A stretch of 64,000 nucleotides of DNA from assembly GCF_003449035.1 (NCBI RefSeq), contig NZ_QRGB01000001.1:620001-684000 (forward strand), in the 5' to 3' direction. The stretch's first letter is position 1. Each line of letters opens with the position of its first letter. The stretch is from Pedobacter indicus (GTDB lineage Bacteria; Bacteroidota; Bacteroidia; Sphingobacteriales; Sphingobacteriaceae). The notes under the pieces are model-generated. The model did not search any database. It saw only the letters and a list, made by a program, of their open reading frames with translations, and was not told the DNA's origin. The translations under genes were made by a program, and so were the position numbers. Positions 28,774-50,567 of the stretch are shown piece after piece.

Positions 28774-28791
28774 TGTTCCACGTGGAACATT
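28772..28791. other. parS-like centromere palindrome
   Basis: A 20-bp perfect palindrome, AATGTTCCACGTGGAACATT, contains the 16-bp core TGTTCCACGTGGAACA. That matches the widely conserved ParB-binding parS consensus TGTTNCACGTGNAACA. It lies between the ABC-F stop and mnmG, about 6 kb from the candidate origin. It explains why an ORF finder extends mnmG with the artificial N-terminus MFHVEH. I saw only this one full match in the window. parA and parB are not present here. Confidence 0.9.
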
Positions 28792-32587: not shown

Positions 32588-33103
32588 CTACTCATCTTTG
32601 AACCAAGTCGAGTACATTACATAATTGTGTGGGAGTTTATCCAACATGGATTTCTGAGAGTCCGTAATAGGTTTAATCTTTCGTGCAGGAATTCCAGCAT
32701 ATACATATCCAGACTCACAGTGCATATTTTCTAAAACTACTGCACCAGCCGCGATAATAACATATTCTTCGACAATAGCATGATCCATTACAATTGCACC
32801 CATTCCTATCAATACGTGATCCTTTATATTACAACCATGTACTAACGCTTGGTGACCGATGGAGACATAATTTCCAACATTAGTTGATGCCCCTTCATAA
32901 GTACAATGAATTATCGCGCCGTCCTGTATATTCGTATAATTCCCTATACGAATAGAATTTACATCACCCCTAATTACTGCATTAAACCAAACGGAACAAT
33001 TCTCTCCCATTATAACATCTCCCACAACCGTTGCGTTATCAGCCAAATAACAAGACGTTGGTATACTCGGGTCAAAACCCCTCACAGAACGAACTAAAGC
33101 CAT
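32588..33103 (-). CDS. Gamma-carbonic anhydrase family protein
   Basis: A 171-residue left-handed beta-helix protein of the YrdA/PaaY type. Hexapeptide repeats run throughout (VVGDVIMGENCSVWFNAVIRGDV, read in pieces), with the zinc-ligand pattern of His in IIHCTYEG, GHQALVHGCNI and the third His nearby. The conserved NAVIRGD Arg/Asp pair is present. The family includes true carbonic anhydrases and acyl-carrier or thioesterase-associated proteins, so activity is uncertain. It is 8 bp downstream of nadB and may be co-transcribed with it. Confidence 0.9.
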   Translation of the reverse strand: MALVRSVRGFDPSIPTSCYLADNATVVGDVIMGENCSVWFNAVIRGDVNSIRIGNYTNIQDGAIIHCTYEGASTNVGNYVSIGHQALVHGCNIKDHVLIGMGAIVMDHAIVEEYVIIAAGAVVLENMHCESGYVYAGIPARKIKPITDSQKSMLDKLPHNYVMYSTWFKDE

Positions 33104-33111
33104 AATATCCC

Positions 33112-34698
33112 TTAAAAAATTGTATCGTGAATGTCTTCTGCATGTTTCGGATAATCCGTCGTATAATGTAAACCCCGACTTTCCTTTCTAAGTAATGCAC
33201 TCTTAATAACAATGAACGCTACTTGAATAACATTCCTCAATTCACAAAGTTTAACGGATAACCGCGTATTTTTATAAAAACTCTCCGTTTCCTCATATAA
33301 TAAGCCCAATCTCCTCATCGCCCGGTCCAAACGAAAATCCGACCTTACAATTCCCACATAATCACTCATAATCTTCTGCGTTTCTCTCAGATTATGCATA
33401 ACTAAAATATCTTCGTTAGATAATTGCGTATTTGATTCGTCCCAATCAGGGATATCATTAGGTATTTGATATGAATCAAATTTAGCAGATGAATCCTCAT
33501 AAATACGGTGGGCAAAAACAGATGCTTCCAGCAGCGAATTCGAAGCGAGTCTGTTGGCGCCATGCAATCCGGTAGAAGCACATTCACCACAAGCATACAA
33601 TCTATTAATACTTGTTTTTCCCCACTCATCAACATAAATACCACCGCATAAATAATGAGCAGCAGGTGCAACAGGTACATAATCTTTTGTAAGATCAATT
33701 CCTATACTCAAACATTTCGCATAAATATTAGGAAAATGGGACAAAATATCCTCTTTAGAACGATGAGTGACATCTAAATAAACATAATCTTCACCTGATT
33801 TTTTCATTTCAGCATCAATCGCGCGAGCTACTATATCCCTCGGGGCTAACGATCCACGCTCGTCATATTCAAACATAAATTCATCACCATTCAGTCTTCG
33901 CAATATTCCTCCAAATCCGCGCAAAGCCTCGGAAATAAGAAAGGCTGGATATTCTCCTGGATTAAAAAGTGACGTAGGGTGAAACTGAATGAATTCCATA
34001 TTCCTTACTTTTCCTTTCGCCCTATAAACCATAGCAATCCCATCACCAGTCGCGATAACGGGATTCGTTGTACTCGAATAAATATGACCAGCTCCACCGG
34101 TAGCCAAAACGGTTACTTTACTCAAAAACTTTTCGACCTTATTGTCCTTCGTATTCAATGCATAAATACCATAACAATCGATATCATCAGACTCCCGATC
34201 CACATAATTTCCTAAGTGATGTTGTGTTATCAGATCGATAGCAAAATAATGAGTTAATACCTCTATATTATTATTCTCATGCACTTTACTTAACAAAGCT
34301 CTCTCTATTTCGAAACCGGTGATGTCTTTATAATGCAAAATCCTGTTCTCAGAATGTCCTCCTTCTTTCGCCAAATCATACTGTCCGGTACCCATCTTAT
34401 CAAAGTGAGTCCCATAATCTATAATTTCTTGCACCCTGGACGGACCTTCTTTCACAACGATTTCCACAATGTCTTTATCACACAGACCATCTCCAGCTAT
34501 CAGAGTATCAGCTATATGCTTCTCAAACGAATCAGACTTATCCACAACAGCAGCTACGCCGCCTTGCGCATACTTTGTATTGGATTCATCTTCGTTAGAC
34601 TTTGTAATGATAAGAACCTTACCGTGTTGCGCTGCCTTTAATGCATAACTCAATCCAGCTATCCCGGATCCTACAACTAAGAAATCAACATTGTACAT
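33112..34698 (-). CDS. nadB: L-aspartate oxidase
   Basis: NadB oxidises L-aspartate to iminoaspartate, the first step of de novo NAD synthesis. The 528-residue flavoprotein has the FAD motif LVVGSGIAGLSYALKAA, the substrate loop TKYAQGGVAAV, FIQFHPTSLF, the His/Arg active-site region AAHYLCGGIYVDE and GECASTGLHGANRLASNSLLE. The C-terminal helical domain with RSDFRLDRAMRRL is complete. It is divergent from nadA, the next enzyme, across a 483-bp gap that may be the replication origin. Assignment is secure. Confidence 0.97.
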   Translation of the reverse strand: MYNVDFLVVGSGIAGLSYALKAAQHGKVLIITKSNEDESNTKYAQGGVAAVVDKSDSFEKHIADTLIAGDGLCDKDIVEIVVKEGPSRVQEIIDYGTHFDKMGTGQYDLAKEGGHSENRILHYKDITGFEIERALLSKVHENNNIEVLTHYFAIDLITQHHLGNYVDRESDDIDCYGIYALNTKDNKVEKFLSKVTVLATGGAGHIYSSTTNPVIATGDGIAMVYRAKGKVRNMEFIQFHPTSLFNPGEYPAFLISEALRGFGGILRRLNGDEFMFEYDERGSLAPRDIVARAIDAEMKKSGEDYVYLDVTHRSKEDILSHFPNIYAKCLSIGIDLTKDYVPVAPAAHYLCGGIYVDEWGKTSINRLYACGECASTGLHGANRLASNSLLEASVFAHRIYEDSSAKFDSYQIPNDIPDWDESNTQLSNEDILVMHNLRETQKIMSDYVGIVRSDFRLDRAMRRLGLLYEETESFYKNTRLSVKLCELRNVIQVAFIVIKSALLRKESRGLHYTTDYPKHAEDIHDTIF

Positions 34699-35181
34699 TG
34701 AAAAAAATTATTACTTTTTATTTATTCACGACCATCGGTTAATAACCATGCGATCCATGTGTAATTTTTGTGAATTAATCGTTAACTATAGTCCTCACGG
34801 ATTAAAAATAGTTAAAAAACATAAGTATTGAACAAACAACTTATTTATTATACAGTAGAAATACCCATTTATTCACCTTCTTGAGTATAGTCTTTAATCC
34901 ACATAATAACTTTGCCAAAAAATACCCCAATTAAAATGAGCCTTAATTTTCAGCGTATTACGTATAAAACGCTGTGAATAATATGTGAACAAAAAAACAA
35001 TAAGAATAAAAGCAATTTCCAATCATCTATTTTCTTCACAATACCAACACTATAATAAGTAATAAGATTCTTTTTATATAAAATAAATTGTTCTTTGTTG
35101 TTGGTGGTGTTAGCAAGCTACCTTAAGCGGGAAGTGGGAATTCATTTACTTTATGTATTTTTGTGAAAGGGTTATAAAGAA
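34699..35181. other. Candidate replication origin (oriC) between nadB and nadA
   Basis: A 483-bp AT-rich gap with no credible ORF. DnaA-box-like 9-mers include a perfect TGTGAATAA (reverse of TTATTCACA) at 34973-34981 and TGTGAACAA at 34984-34992, 11 bp apart, plus one-mismatch copies at 34722-34730, 34769-34777, 34869-34877, 34895-34903 and 35032-35040. An imperfect palindrome lies at 34951-34974 (CAGCGT...ACGCTG) just before the best pair. Strand composition appears to change near here: minus-strand nadB (33121-33360) shows G 29 against C 63 on the plus strand, while minus-strand ald (51781-51960) shows G 49 against C 33. Hand counts of short samples only. Confidence 0.5.
35156..35163 (+). 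promoter_or_regulatory. -7 promoter element of nadA-thiL
   Basis: TATTTTTG matches TAnnTTTG about 18 bases before the nadA ATG. A leader of about 12 nt would follow. Confidence 0.4.
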
Positions 35182-36183
35182 ATGGAAACAGCGTACGATA
35201 TAGATTTGAATGAAAAAGGATTTATTGACGAACCAATCGATCCTAATTTAGACATTGTTGAAGCTATACAACAGCTCAAGAAAGAAAAGAATGCTGTTAT
35301 ACTAGCACATTATTATCAAGAATCTGAAATACAGGATATTGCAGATTATATCGGAGATAGCCTGGGGCTCTCCCAACAAGCTGCTAAAACCGAAGCAGAT
35401 GTCATAGTATTTGCTGGTGTACACTTTATGGCAGAAACCGCTAAAATATTATCACCCGAAAAAAAGGTTTTATTACCCGATTTAAAAGCAGGGTGTTCAT
35501 TATCTGATAGCTGTCCGCCACATTTGTTCGCTAAGTTCAAAGAACAATATCCTGATCATCTTGTGATAACATATGTCAATTGTACTGCAGAGCTCAAAGC
35601 TTTGAGTGATATTGTTTGTACTTCATCTAATGCAGTTCAAATTGTAGAGAGTTTACCAGCAGATCAGAAAATCATATTTGGTCCTGATAAAAACTTAGGG
35701 GATTATGTAATTAAGAAAACTGGTCGGGATAATATCGTACTTTGGAATGGAGCCTGTATGGTGCATGAAATTTTCTCACAAGAAAAAATAAATGAATTAC
35801 GGGAAGAATATCCAGCTGCTAAATTAATAGCCCATCCAGAATGTGAAAATCATATTCTGGAAAATGCAGATTATATCGGATCTACATCTGGCCTTTTAAA
35901 ATATACCAAAGAAAATGCAGCACAGGTATTTATCGTCGCTACCGAAAGTGGGATTATTTATCAAATGCAAAAAGCCAATCCTGATAAAACATTTATTCCA
36001 GCACCGCCAAATAACGCTTGTGCCTGCAACGATTGTCCACACATGAAGTTAAATACGCTTGAAAAGCTATATAATTGCATGAAATACGAGCTTCCTGAGG
36101 TAACACTGGATCAAGATCTAATAAAACGTGCACAGAAACCGATTGAGCGTATGTTGGATATTTCCGCTCGTTTAGGATTATAA
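35182..36183 (+). CDS. nadA: Quinolinate synthase
   Basis: NadA condenses iminoaspartate with dihydroxyacetone phosphate to quinolinate, using a [4Fe-4S] cluster. The 333-residue protein has [26 protein letters not shown] in pieces, the cluster Cys of KAGCSLSD, a second Cys near [20 protein letters not shown], and the C-terminal cluster motif [15 protein letters not shown]. The family is complete. The gene heads a plus-strand pair with thiL (27-bp gap) and is divergent from nadB. Secure. Confidence 0.97.
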
Positions 36184-36210: not shown

Positions 36211-37257
36211 ATGTTTGATAACAAAGGAAGAACCTCTCTAGAGGAGTTGGGTGAATTTGGTTTGATTAAGCACCTCACGGATGCTGTTACAATAGAACAG
36301 GAAACGACAACAAAGGGGATAGGGGACGATGCTGCAGTTCTTGATTTTTCAACAAAGAAGACACTTATTTCAACTGATCTTTTATTAGAAGGAATTCATT
36401 TTGATTTACGTTATGTACCCTTGAAACACCTCGGATACAAGGCAGTTCAAGTTAACTTAAGTGATATTTATGCGATGAATGGTATAGCCTCGCAAATCAC
36501 TTTTTCCATAGGTCTTTCAAGTAAATTTCCTTTAGAAGCGATCGAAGAGATTTATGAAGGCGCCCTCCTCGCCTGTAAACATTATCAGGTAGATTTAATT
36601 GGCGGAGATACTTCATCTTCTGCACAAGGATTGGTAATTAGTATCACCAGTATAGGTTATGCCGAAGCGGAAAAAGTTGTTTATCGGGATGGAGCGAAAG
36701 AAGGGGATCTAATTTGCGTCTCCGGCGATTTGGGGGGTGCCTATGTAGGCTTACAAATATTAGAAAGAGAGAAAAATATATTCCTTGAAAATCCGAATAT
36801 CCAACCAGATTTGGAAGGGAAAGATTATATCATTGAAAGACAATTGAAACCTGAAGCTAGGAAGGATATTGTTGAGTTATTGGCGGAAAAAGAAATATTA
36901 CCTACCTCGATGATTGATATTTCTGATGGTCTAGCTTCGGAAATACTACATATTTGTACGCAATCTGCTAAAGGTTGTAAAATTTATGAAGAAAAAATAC
37001 CAATTGATCAGATGACTTTTGATACAGCATTTGAGTTTGGATTAGACCCTACAGTATGTGCTTTGAGCGGAGGAGAAGATTACGAATTATTGTTCACTGT
37101 TTCTCAAAACGACTATGAGAAAATAAAGAATCTGATAGATATAACTGTTATAGGTCATATAACAGAGGAAGCAGCAGGCTGTGAGCTGATTTCAAAGTCG
37201 AATAAAGTACATCCTATTAAAGCACAAGGTTGGAATTCCTTTATTAAATCTGAATAG
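36211..37257 (+). CDS. thiL: Thiamine-monophosphate kinase
   Basis: ThiL phosphorylates thiamine monophosphate to thiamine diphosphate, the active cofactor. The 348-residue protein has the AIR-synthase-like fold: GIGDDAAVLD near the N-terminus, STDLLLEGIHFDL, the dimer and metal site GGDTSSS, VSGDLGGAYVG, DISDGLASE and a C-terminal GGEDYELLF. All are diagnostic and the length is slightly above E. coli ThiL. It follows nadA by 27 bp. Secure. Confidence 0.96.
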   Translation: MFDNKGRTSLEELGEFGLIKHLTDAVTIEQETTTKGIGDDAAVLDFSTKKTLISTDLLLEGIHFDLRYVPLKHLGYKAVQVNLSDIYAMNGIASQITFSIGLSSKFPLEAIEEIYEGALLACKHYQVDLIGGDTSSSAQGLVISITSIGYAEAEKVVYRDGAKEGDLICVSGDLGGAYVGLQILEREKNIFLENPNIQPDLEGKDYIIERQLKPEARKDIVELLAEKEILPTSMIDISDGLASEILHICTQSAKGCKIYEEKIPIDQMTFDTAFEFGLDPTVCALSGGEDYELLFTVSQNDYEKIKNLIDITVIGHITEEAAGCELISKSNKVHPIKAQGWNSFIKSE

Positions 37258-39513: not shown

Positions 39514-39555
39514 TATCAACTGATATTAATAATTAGTAATTTTAAATTTTCTTTA

Positions 39556-39588
39556 AAGGGAATGGTTTGAGCCGTTCCCTTTTTTTTT
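39556..39588 (+). terminator. Rho-independent terminator after the metallopeptidase gene
   Basis: A 10-bp stem AAGGGAATGG/CCGTTCCCTT (one G-U pair) with a 6-nt loop TTTGAG, followed by nine T residues. Confidence 0.9.
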
Positions 39589-39959
39589 GAACGTTTGGGT
39601 CACTTCCCAGTCGAATTTCCCTCCCTCTACCTACATAATAAAACTTAACTATAAAAAGGACAGCTGAATTATTAATGGGTTTTTAGTAATCTCAAATTCA
39701 ACTAAAATGCAAATTTTTCAAAGATAAGAATTCATACTCCGATAGATCTTGTATTACTTGTTCCCGTTATGCACCCGTAGTGCTCCCGTTGCCAACCCGT
39801 ACAAAAGGTTGTTTGATCGAGTTCACTACGATATAATAACGCGATCAATACGTGTTATAGTAAAACATGGTATATCGAATATATGGTCAATATTTTTCGT
39901 ATAAAATTGGAAATTGATAGGAATTTATGCCCGGGGAATTAGTTATGGATACGAAGAGG
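39589..39959. other. Intergenic stretch without a gene
   Basis: A 371-bp stretch between the metallopeptidase terminator and the ybeY stop. No ORF over 20 codons here looks credible. The only structure seen is the CCCGT repeat at 39757-39800. The right part is AT-rich (for example the area 39880-39910), without a clear promoter for a neighbour, both flanking genes reading toward it. Confidence 0.6.
39757..39800. repeat. Four tandem 11-bp units sharing CCCGT/ACGGG
   Basis: CCCGT occurs at 39763, 39774, 39785 and 39796, exactly 11 bp apart. On the minus strand the four units start ACGGG, and three of the four keep CA at positions 8-9. The spacing is about one helical turn, so the copies face the same side of the DNA. 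Confidence 0.85.
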
Positions 39960-49589: not shown

Positions 49590-50567
49590 ATGAATAAAAT
49601 TAAAAGTATTGGCATTCTAACTTCAGGAGGAGACTCTCCGGGAATGAATGCTGCTATCCGAGCTGTAGTAAGGACAGCTCTATATTATGACCTGAAAGTT
49701 TATGGTGTAACACGTGGTTATGATGGACTGGTCAAGGGGGATATTGTTGAGATGGGCCCCAAATCGGTAGCTAATATTATTCAGCGCGGTGGAACTATAT
49801 TGAAAACTGCCAGAAGCCAGGAGTTTCTCACAGTAGAGGGGAGAACGAAGGCTCGCGAGCAACTTCAGAAATTTGGAATCGACGCCTTGGTCGCTATTGG
49901 AGGAGATGGAACATTTACAGGAGCAAAGATATTTATGGAAGAACAGGGTATTCCTATTATTGGAATTCCTGGTACGATCGATAACGATTTACAAGGTACT
50001 GACTTCACTATCGGGTATGATACGGCAATCAACACGGTTGTTGATGCGGTAGATAAAATTCGGGATACAGCTGAGTCACATGATCGGGTATTTATCGTTG
50101 AGGTTATGGGTCGGGATTCGGGTTTAATTGCTTTGCGTAGTGGGATCGGTATTGGGGCGGAAGCAATATTAATTCCCGAAGCAAAAATTGATTTCACTAA
50201 CATGCTCAATCGAATGGATAGCATTCGTAAAAATAAGTCATCTCGAATTATTATTGTGGCGGAAGGCGAAGGTGAAGGAGGCGCATTTGAGGCTGCTGAA
50301 AAGGTTAAAGAACGTTTTCCTCATTATGATGTAAGAGTTTCAATTTTAGGCCATATTCAGCGAGGAGGGAAGCCTTCGTGTATGGATAGGGTTTTAGCTA
50401 GTCGATTGGGCGTGGCTGCAGTAGAAGGGTTAATTGCGGGTAAATCTGGCGAAATGGCGGGAATCATTTGTGGCGATATCGCATTTACACCTTTTGAAAA
50501 TGCGATCAAACATATACACACAGTAAATCCTAATTTACTGAAGATTGCTGATATACTTTCCCTATAA
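49590..50567 (+). CDS. pfkA: 6-phosphofructokinase
   Basis: PfkA phosphorylates fructose-6-phosphate with ATP, the committed step of glycolysis. The 325-residue protein has GGDSPGMNAAIRAVV, the ATP-binding GGDGTFTGA, the catalytic PGTIDNDLQGTDFTIGYDTA, the substrate motif VMGRDSGLIAL and the C-terminal GHIQRGG. All active-site residues are visible. It lies alone on the plus strand, convergent with the YihY gene. Secure. Confidence 0.97.
   Translation: MNKIKSIGILTSGGDSPGMNAAIRAVVRTALYYDLKVYGVTRGYDGLVKGDIVEMGPKSVANIIQRGGTILKTARSQEFLTVEGRTKAREQLQKFGIDALVAIGGDGTFTGAKIFMEEQGIPIIGIPGTIDNDLQGTDFTIGYDTAINTVVDAVDKIRDTAESHDRVFIVEVMGRDSGLIALRSGIGIGAEAILIPEAKIDFTNMLNRMDSIRKNKSSRIIIVAEGEGEGGAFEAAEKVKERFPHYDVRVSILGHIQRGGKPSCMDRVLASRLGVAAVEGLIAGKSGEMAGIICGDIAFTPFENAIKHIHTVNPNLLKIADILSL

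Follow-up and report, generated by a model that had tools for sequence, protein, structure and literature searches.

Computational prediction of the chromosomal replication origin of Pedobacter indicus in the gap between nadB and nadA

The intergenic gap between the divergent genes nadB and nadA of Pedobacter indicus is very probably the chromosomal replication origin (oriC), a prediction with strong computational support. The window, that is the whole stretch of DNA analysed, comprised 64,000 nucleotides and corresponds to C1:620001-684000; contig C1 holds 3,468,875 bases of the 3.47 Mb genome. A sequence-only reading of the window had proposed an oriC at this place, and the proposal was supported by the position of the GC skew minimum, the enrichment of DnaA-box-like 9-mers, the conservation of the gap, the persistence of its core where the nad genes are gone and the proximity of a parS site.

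The gap measures 483 bp and is the longest between open reading frames in the window (the runners-up have 446 and 370 bp). It is AT-rich, with 73% A+T, and both properties had been described correctly from the letters. The second-longest gap (446 bp, window 39514-39959) has no gene call and contains a single box-like 9-mer. The gap, its flanking genes and a promoter-like element are as follows.

33112..34698, minus strand: nadB, flanking gene; FAD_binding_2 and Succ_DH_flav_C domains, which fit the name given in the sequence-only reading
34699..35181, unstranded: intergenic gap predicted to carry oriC, flanked by the divergent genes nadB and nadA (size, AT content, boxes, skew, family conservation)
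35156..35163, plus strand: TATTTTTG, Bacteroidota-type -7 promoter-like element ahead of nadA (enrichment of TANNTTTG in gaps)
35182..36183, plus strand: nadA, flanking gene; PF02445, E 2.5e-129

The cumulative GC skew of the window has its minimum at 35050, and this position stays the lowest point when contig positions 530-815 kb are taken in (with three unsampled gaps of 5-10 kb). The sharp local minimum partly reflects the divergent genes, through coding-strand bias. A switch in strand composition had been suggested from hand counts; the count for pfkA (50101-50160, G 26 and C 6) was exact on recount, and the whole of nadB has G 225 and C 387 on the plus strand. On the scale of the chromosome, most samples between 2.4 Mb and, across the contig end, 0.65 Mb had negative skew; between 0.65 and 2.3 Mb most were positive. 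A single origin was fitted to 148 5-kb tiles, covering 21% of the contig, with 200 permutations. The best position was 655,000, inside the gap (contig 654,699-655,181), with 62 of the 73 tiles to its right positive and 61 of the 75 to its left negative. Its score of 0.080 exceeded all 200 permutations (maximum 0.042), and the cumulative skew maximum, at 2.31 Mb, is close to the antipode at 2.39 Mb. The contig minimum, taken from the sampled stretches, falls at the gap, where the sequence-only reading had expected it. Because the whole range of 580-675 kb scores within 95% of the best, skew alone resolves the origin no finer than this range.

Skew was rejected as a universal support across relatives, given a misfit in one genome (G017) and the lack of a sign change in two others. 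Three relatives were sampled chromosome-wide. In G041, which fits, the gap scored 0.061, a value that no permutation out of 200 reached (maximum 0.051), and it stays within 95% of the highest score (0.063, 93 kb off); the local skew minimum of this genome, at 317,604, is the start of the nadA match. In G017, a single-contig genome that also has the gap and gives a strong core match, the score was -0.013 at the gap and the best position lay 1.28 Mb off (119 tiles). Since its best score (0.030) stays below the permutation maximum (0.033), skew points clearly to no origin in G017; the misfit may stem from a rearrangement, from an error in the assembly or from another history of its skew. In G008 the score was 0.0275 at the gap versus a best of 0.0285, 694 kb off, neither exceeding the permutations, which reached 0.034. 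Six genomes were sampled partially around the gap: the summed skew flipped sign across it in G001, G002, G038 and G012, and no sign change was seen in G033 and G037. As to the local minimum of the cumulative skew, G001, G002, G037 and G038 have it inside the gap or a few bases from it, and G012 and G033 have it elsewhere.

As had been counted before, seven 9-mers in the gap match TTATNCACA with at most one mismatch, one of them (at 34973) exactly. First-order Markov shuffles of the gap gave a mean of 1.08, and none of 300 shuffles reached seven. When the whole window was scanned in 483-bp bins at 50-bp steps, all bins with at least three box-like 9-mers started at 34251-34951, making this the sole above-chance box cluster in the window; the two next-longest gaps held one and two such 9-mers. 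The boxes and other elements of the gap are listed here, with row counts referring to the family alignment described below.

34722..34730, plus strand: DnaA-box-like 9-mer TTATTCACG, one mismatch to TTATNCACA
34769..34777, minus strand: DnaA-box-like 9-mer TAATTCACA, one mismatch to TTATNCACA
34869..34877, plus strand: DnaA-box-like 9-mer TTATTCACC, one mismatch to TTATNCACA
34895..34903, plus strand: DnaA-box-like 9-mer TAATCCACA, one mismatch; aligns by eye with an ACA-ending block in many relatives
34946..35096, plus strand: conserved core of the predicted oriC, matched by profile R1 (63.1 bits, E 1.3e-18)
34951..34974, unstranded: imperfect palindrome, weak, 18 of 24 positions self-complementary
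34973..34981, minus strand: first box of the distal DnaA box pair, TTATTCACA, exact to TTATNCACA; T2, A7, C8 and A9 all kept in 26 of 41 rows
34984..34992, minus strand: second box of the distal pair, TTGTTCACA, 11 bp from the first; T2, A7, C8 and A9 kept in 39 of 41 rows
35032..35040, plus strand: proximal tandem box 1, TTCTTCACA; T2, A7, C8 and A9 kept in 28 of 41 rows
35041..35049, plus strand: proximal tandem box 2, ATACCAACA, a weak box abutting box 1; A7-C8-A9 in 41 of 41 rows
35050..35068, minus strand: conserved TAATAA...AATAAG element, with TTATT on the minus strand; 36 of 41 rows carry TTATT (500 shuffles: mean 8.9, maximum 17)
35067..35100, unstranded: AT-rich stretch (85% AT) within the conserved core, candidate duplex-unwinding element

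Conservation was studied around nadA. A protein search found NadA in 49 of 60 relatives; nadA loci were taken from 30 of these 49 genomes, and 80 further loci were added, 61 from outside the family and 19 from within it (Parapedobacter, Sphingobacterium, Olivibacter, Pseudopedobacter, Pedobacter, Mucilaginibacter and one other Sphingobacteriaceae). Divergent nadB and nadA surround the gap in all 49 family loci examined (the window, 29 and 19), at a spacing of 387-605 bp, and these loci contain 47 distinct gaps. The family is presumably Sphingobacteriaceae, judging by the close relatives among the added loci. Outside the family, none of the 61 loci gave a nadB match; in five of them the sequence upstream of nadA was shorter than 750 bp. 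The identical gaps L102 and L118 were dropped ahead of the k-mer counts, the core alignment was made without L093 (too short), and alignment A2, without the Pedobacter rows L109, L111, L112, L113 and L116, comprised 41 of the 47 distinct gaps.

In the aligned family gaps the core has two boxes on the minus strand, 11 bp from each other, followed by a spacer (39 bp in the window) and two abutting plus-strand 9-mers; after this proximal pair come a CTAATAAACAATAAG-like sequence and an AT-rich stretch. The box letters vary among rows, with TTATCCACA in some and TTATTAACA or TTACTAACA in others, and in the window proximal box 2 has three mismatches to TTATCCACA. All 41 rows keep the ACA end (A7-C8-A9) unchanged in the second box of each pair, distal and proximal. 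The sequence-only reading had pointed to the boxes at 34973 and 34984, on the same (minus) strand and 11 bp apart; since the family alignment keeps both, this pair is a conserved feature. The gap and its boxes are kept in relatives, which was one of the checks that the reading had proposed. The most conserved part is the proximal pair (35032 and 35041) with the element after it, which had not been singled out. AT-rich DNA is likewise conserved beside the proximal pair. The palindrome that had been noted next to the distal pair is present but weak, and by eye it is absent from the alignments of relatives, so it was discarded as a functional element. An IHF-like site, spotted by eye in a conserved TGAAAATCAAT block of the relatives, had no match in the window and was also set aside.

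We searched genomes with R1, a core profile trained on Sphingobacteriaceae only, using stricter filters and scoring 50 candidates per genome. The core is the best R1 match in the genome, and the next match in the window reached 11.4 bits; because the window is a training row, the match there is by construction. Of the 37 family genomes, 35 had their best match in the nadA gap; most of these are training rows, and the genomes outside the training set that fit were G008, G011, G032, G039, G044 and G045. In the remaining two, the best match fell in a gap without nad genes (G006, described below) and R1 missed (G009, 76% complete). In 12 of 23 genomes of other families the best match was either directly upstream of nadA (G020, G049, G051, G054, G058 and G056, the last tied with a second position) or no more than 16 kb from a perfect parS (G019, G021, G022, G052, G055 and G057), several of these matches being weak (E up to 0.095). 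The other 11 were G024, G025, G027, G029, G030 and G059, with the best match away from nadA and not within 16 kb of a parS, G026, without a match, and G023, G028, G050 and G053, which have no nadA and no perfect parS. The best R1 match of G025 lies between rpiB and a MORN-like gene, 85 kb from parS. In the 61 loci outside the family, 20 of 21 matches at E<=0.01 were on the expected strand and at most 600 bp upstream of nadA, with one on the other strand. At E<=1, 27 of 31 were as expected, one was on the other strand and three were elsewhere; 30 of the 61 loci gave no match.

A second profile, R2, included 21 other-family rows (alignment A3), chosen because R1 had found the core there, and was run with stricter filters on the 20 best first-look candidates per genome. 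Of 149 genomes of the class, 73 had a match at E<=0.001, from 39 families including Sphingobacteriaceae; the other 76 had none at this threshold. Among the 20 best first-look candidates per genome, 72 of the 73 matching genomes had a single match. In G024 and G030 the R2 matches fall directly upstream of nadA; G025 belongs to the R2 training set. Loci were inspected in the best 30 of the 73 matching genomes, 25 of them outside the family and 17 of these outside R2 training. Sixteen of the 17 were flanked by rpiB or nadA, and in the exception (G052) the core is 1.3 kb from parS; six of the 17 (G085, G121, G153, G166, G099 and G092) share a genus with a training row, and species overlap with training rows is possible. 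In other families rpiB often flanks the core on one side, with nadA or a MORN-like gene on the other. The arrangement with the MORN-like gene, and with no adjoining nadA, was seen in L341, L342, L354, L359, L376, L381 and L382. Other neighbours also occurred; for example, G057 has pgk next to the core and G055 has a gene for a protein of 1121 aa.

The pattern TGTTNCACGTGNAACA, which we take to be parS, matches once in the genome, at the distance of 6 kb from the gap that had been noted earlier.

28774..28789, unstranded: parS-type site TGTTCCACGTGGAACA at the start of mnmG, overlapping its first codons; sole perfect site in the genome

Perfect parS sites occur together with nadA in 24 family genomes; there are 34 such sites, all of them 4.2-7.4 kb from nadA. 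A perfect parS was missing from 12 of 37 family genomes, including G001, of the same genus, and G017. The dnaA gene is outside this locus, as the sequence-only reading had it, at 289.6-291.0 kb of the contig and 365 kb from the gap; adjacency to dnaA, a common but not universal trait of oriC, was not found here. The distance from dnaA to nadA is 365 kb to 1 Mb in five of the six family genomes with both genes on one contig. Unlike these five, G017 (L230, G017:C1:1-18000) has dnaA just 9 kb from nadA. Along domains I, III and IV, the DnaA of the source genome aligns with DnaA chains of solved structure, and its C-terminal, box-binding domain matches 1j1v (E 3.1e-16), presumably E. coli DnaA domain IV. 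In G008, also a single contig, ten extra weak DnaA-family matches were seen, several with identical score, perhaps a repeated mobile-element ATPase.

The gap could instead be only the divergent promoter or regulatory region of nadB and nadA, with the box-like 9-mers as operators or AT-rich noise. The two genes are divergent, which alone yields a local skew minimum, and TANNTTTG, presumably the Bacteroidota -7 promoter element, is found ahead of nadA here and within the final 75 bp of 20 of the 47 gaps, versus 2.3 expected; promoters probably lie within the gap as well. However, the gap is not merely a nad promoter, because the core is kept in G006 after nadA and nadB have gone. In this small-genome relative of the same family (1.7 Mb, 99% complete), nadA was absent by protein search and Pfam model, and no nadB was found above the NCBIfam cut-off. 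The sole nadB match is a 649-aa frame on another contig (207 bits vs a cut-off of 453), probably a related flavoprotein. R1, trained without G006, finds the core there with E 9.5e-11, in a gap of 454 bp with 78% AT (L340:9584-10037), 4.4 kb from its parS. This gap is bounded by orthologues of the window genes 36211-37257 and 32588-33103, the next genes out, and contains seven TTATNCACA-like 9-mers (a count without shuffle control). With the cores of several other families that sit between rpiB and a MORN-repeat gene, this makes conservation independent of the neighbouring genes. A promoter would also leave the chromosome-scale skew switch and the nearness of parS unexplained, and we consider it very improbable that the gap is nothing else.

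Alternatively, the true origin may be elsewhere within tens of kb, for example nearer parS and mnmG, with the gap acting as a DnaA-titration or timing site. Clusters of DnaA boxes away from oriC exist, and the breadth of the skew optimum leaves room for such a position. Against this, the window holds no comparable box cluster elsewhere, the next-best R1 match is far below the 63.1 bits of the core, and nearly all R2-matching genomes carry one match only. We give this explanation hardly any credence.

If the gap is the origin, DnaA, encoded 365 kb off, would bind both box pairs, the distal one (34973/34984) and the proximal tandem one (35032/35041), and from the latter it would engage the adjacent TAATAA/TTATT element. 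The AT-rich stretch at about 35050-35100 is the predicted site of melting by DnaA; the helicase would be loaded there and two forks would depart. ParB, acting at the parS site at the start of mnmG, would presumably segregate the new origins.

The TAATAA/TTATT element occupies the spot of single-strand DnaA-binding motifs in known origins, which suggests a similar role. The TTATT at 35050..35068 is a candidate single-strand DnaA motif, resembling the TTATT/TTGT motifs of E. coli; given the orientation of E. coli box R1, it would lie on the corresponding strand. In the basal unwinding system (BUS) of B. subtilis, the DnaA-trios have the polarity of a strand read 3' to 5' away from the boxes. An array was called when at least three in-register.A. 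triplets were found on the lower strand within 7 bp after box 2. The window had a run of two, no better than shuffles, and the array was missing in 20 of 21 family rows including the window, so canonical DnaA-trios in the Sphingobacteriaceae core were rejected. The array was present in 13 of 21 other-family rows; since the mean run there was 2.9 vs 2.1 in shuffles, this support is modest. The upper strand has longer trio runs, with a run of six in the window (a count without control).

Taken jointly, the data allow a tentative proposal, which we rate somewhat below an even chance. The class may keep one ancestral origin at the address rpiB - oriC - nadA or MORN-repeat gene, with a fixed inner plan (a distal pair at 11 bp, an abutting proximal pair and a TAATAR element) and with dnaA usually remote in Sphingobacteriaceae. 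In that family the trio array would have decayed, with a TTATT/TTGT-type element on the opposite strand taking its place. If true, this would be an example from nature of a change in the way DnaA holds the single strand at an origin. The difference in trios between families poses a testable question on origin opening.

Origins of Bacteroidota have so far been predicted per genome, largely via skew. That oriC may be far from dnaA is already known in Bacteroidetes, and the nadB/nadA (rpiB) address was not found published: no oriC at nadB/nadA or rpiB was found in the open-licence literature among the matches listed, and DoriC may hold automatic entries. The conserved address together with the profile could serve to place origins in draft or weak-skew genomes and in coverage-based estimates of growth rate. 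The conserved core is also a defined fragment for oriC plasmids and work on DnaA.

The position of the predicted origin agrees with what has been described for the phylum. A passage of the Prevotella intermedia OMA14 report states that oriC of Bacteroidetes is commonly far from dnaA (PMC4755523), in line with the earlier remark that such a distance is not unusual here. The wider group is not uniform: passages on other genomes place the Melioribacter origin between dnaA and dnaN (PMC3534657) and describe one Blattabacterium without dnaA or DnaA boxes (PMC2768785). For P. intermedia OMA14 (PMC4755523) and Elizabethkingia meningoseptica (PMC8994065), Ori-Finder predicted an oriC of about 480 bp and about 649 bp, respectively, each with several DnaA boxes and far from dnaA. 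The gap studied here is likewise a multi-box region of similar scale remote from dnaA; the passages on oriC in these two accounts name no neighbour genes and no conserved inner layout. The DUE of E. coli oriC is described as carrying TTATT/TTGT motifs (PMC10316083), and similarly TTATT adjoins the proximal boxes in Sphingobacteriaceae. Unlike the gap, E. coli oriC has a longer box array and an IHF-binding region. In the B. subtilis BUS, according to passages in two reports, distal boxes raise local DnaA and the proximal pair loads DnaA onto the trios (PMC6669920, PMC8287927). At least three in-register DnaA-trios are missing from the window, unlike in the BUS, but tandem boxes beside the unwinding region are present and conserved at 35032 and 35041. 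With these proximal tandem boxes and a separate distal group, the gap is built like the B. subtilis oriC described there.
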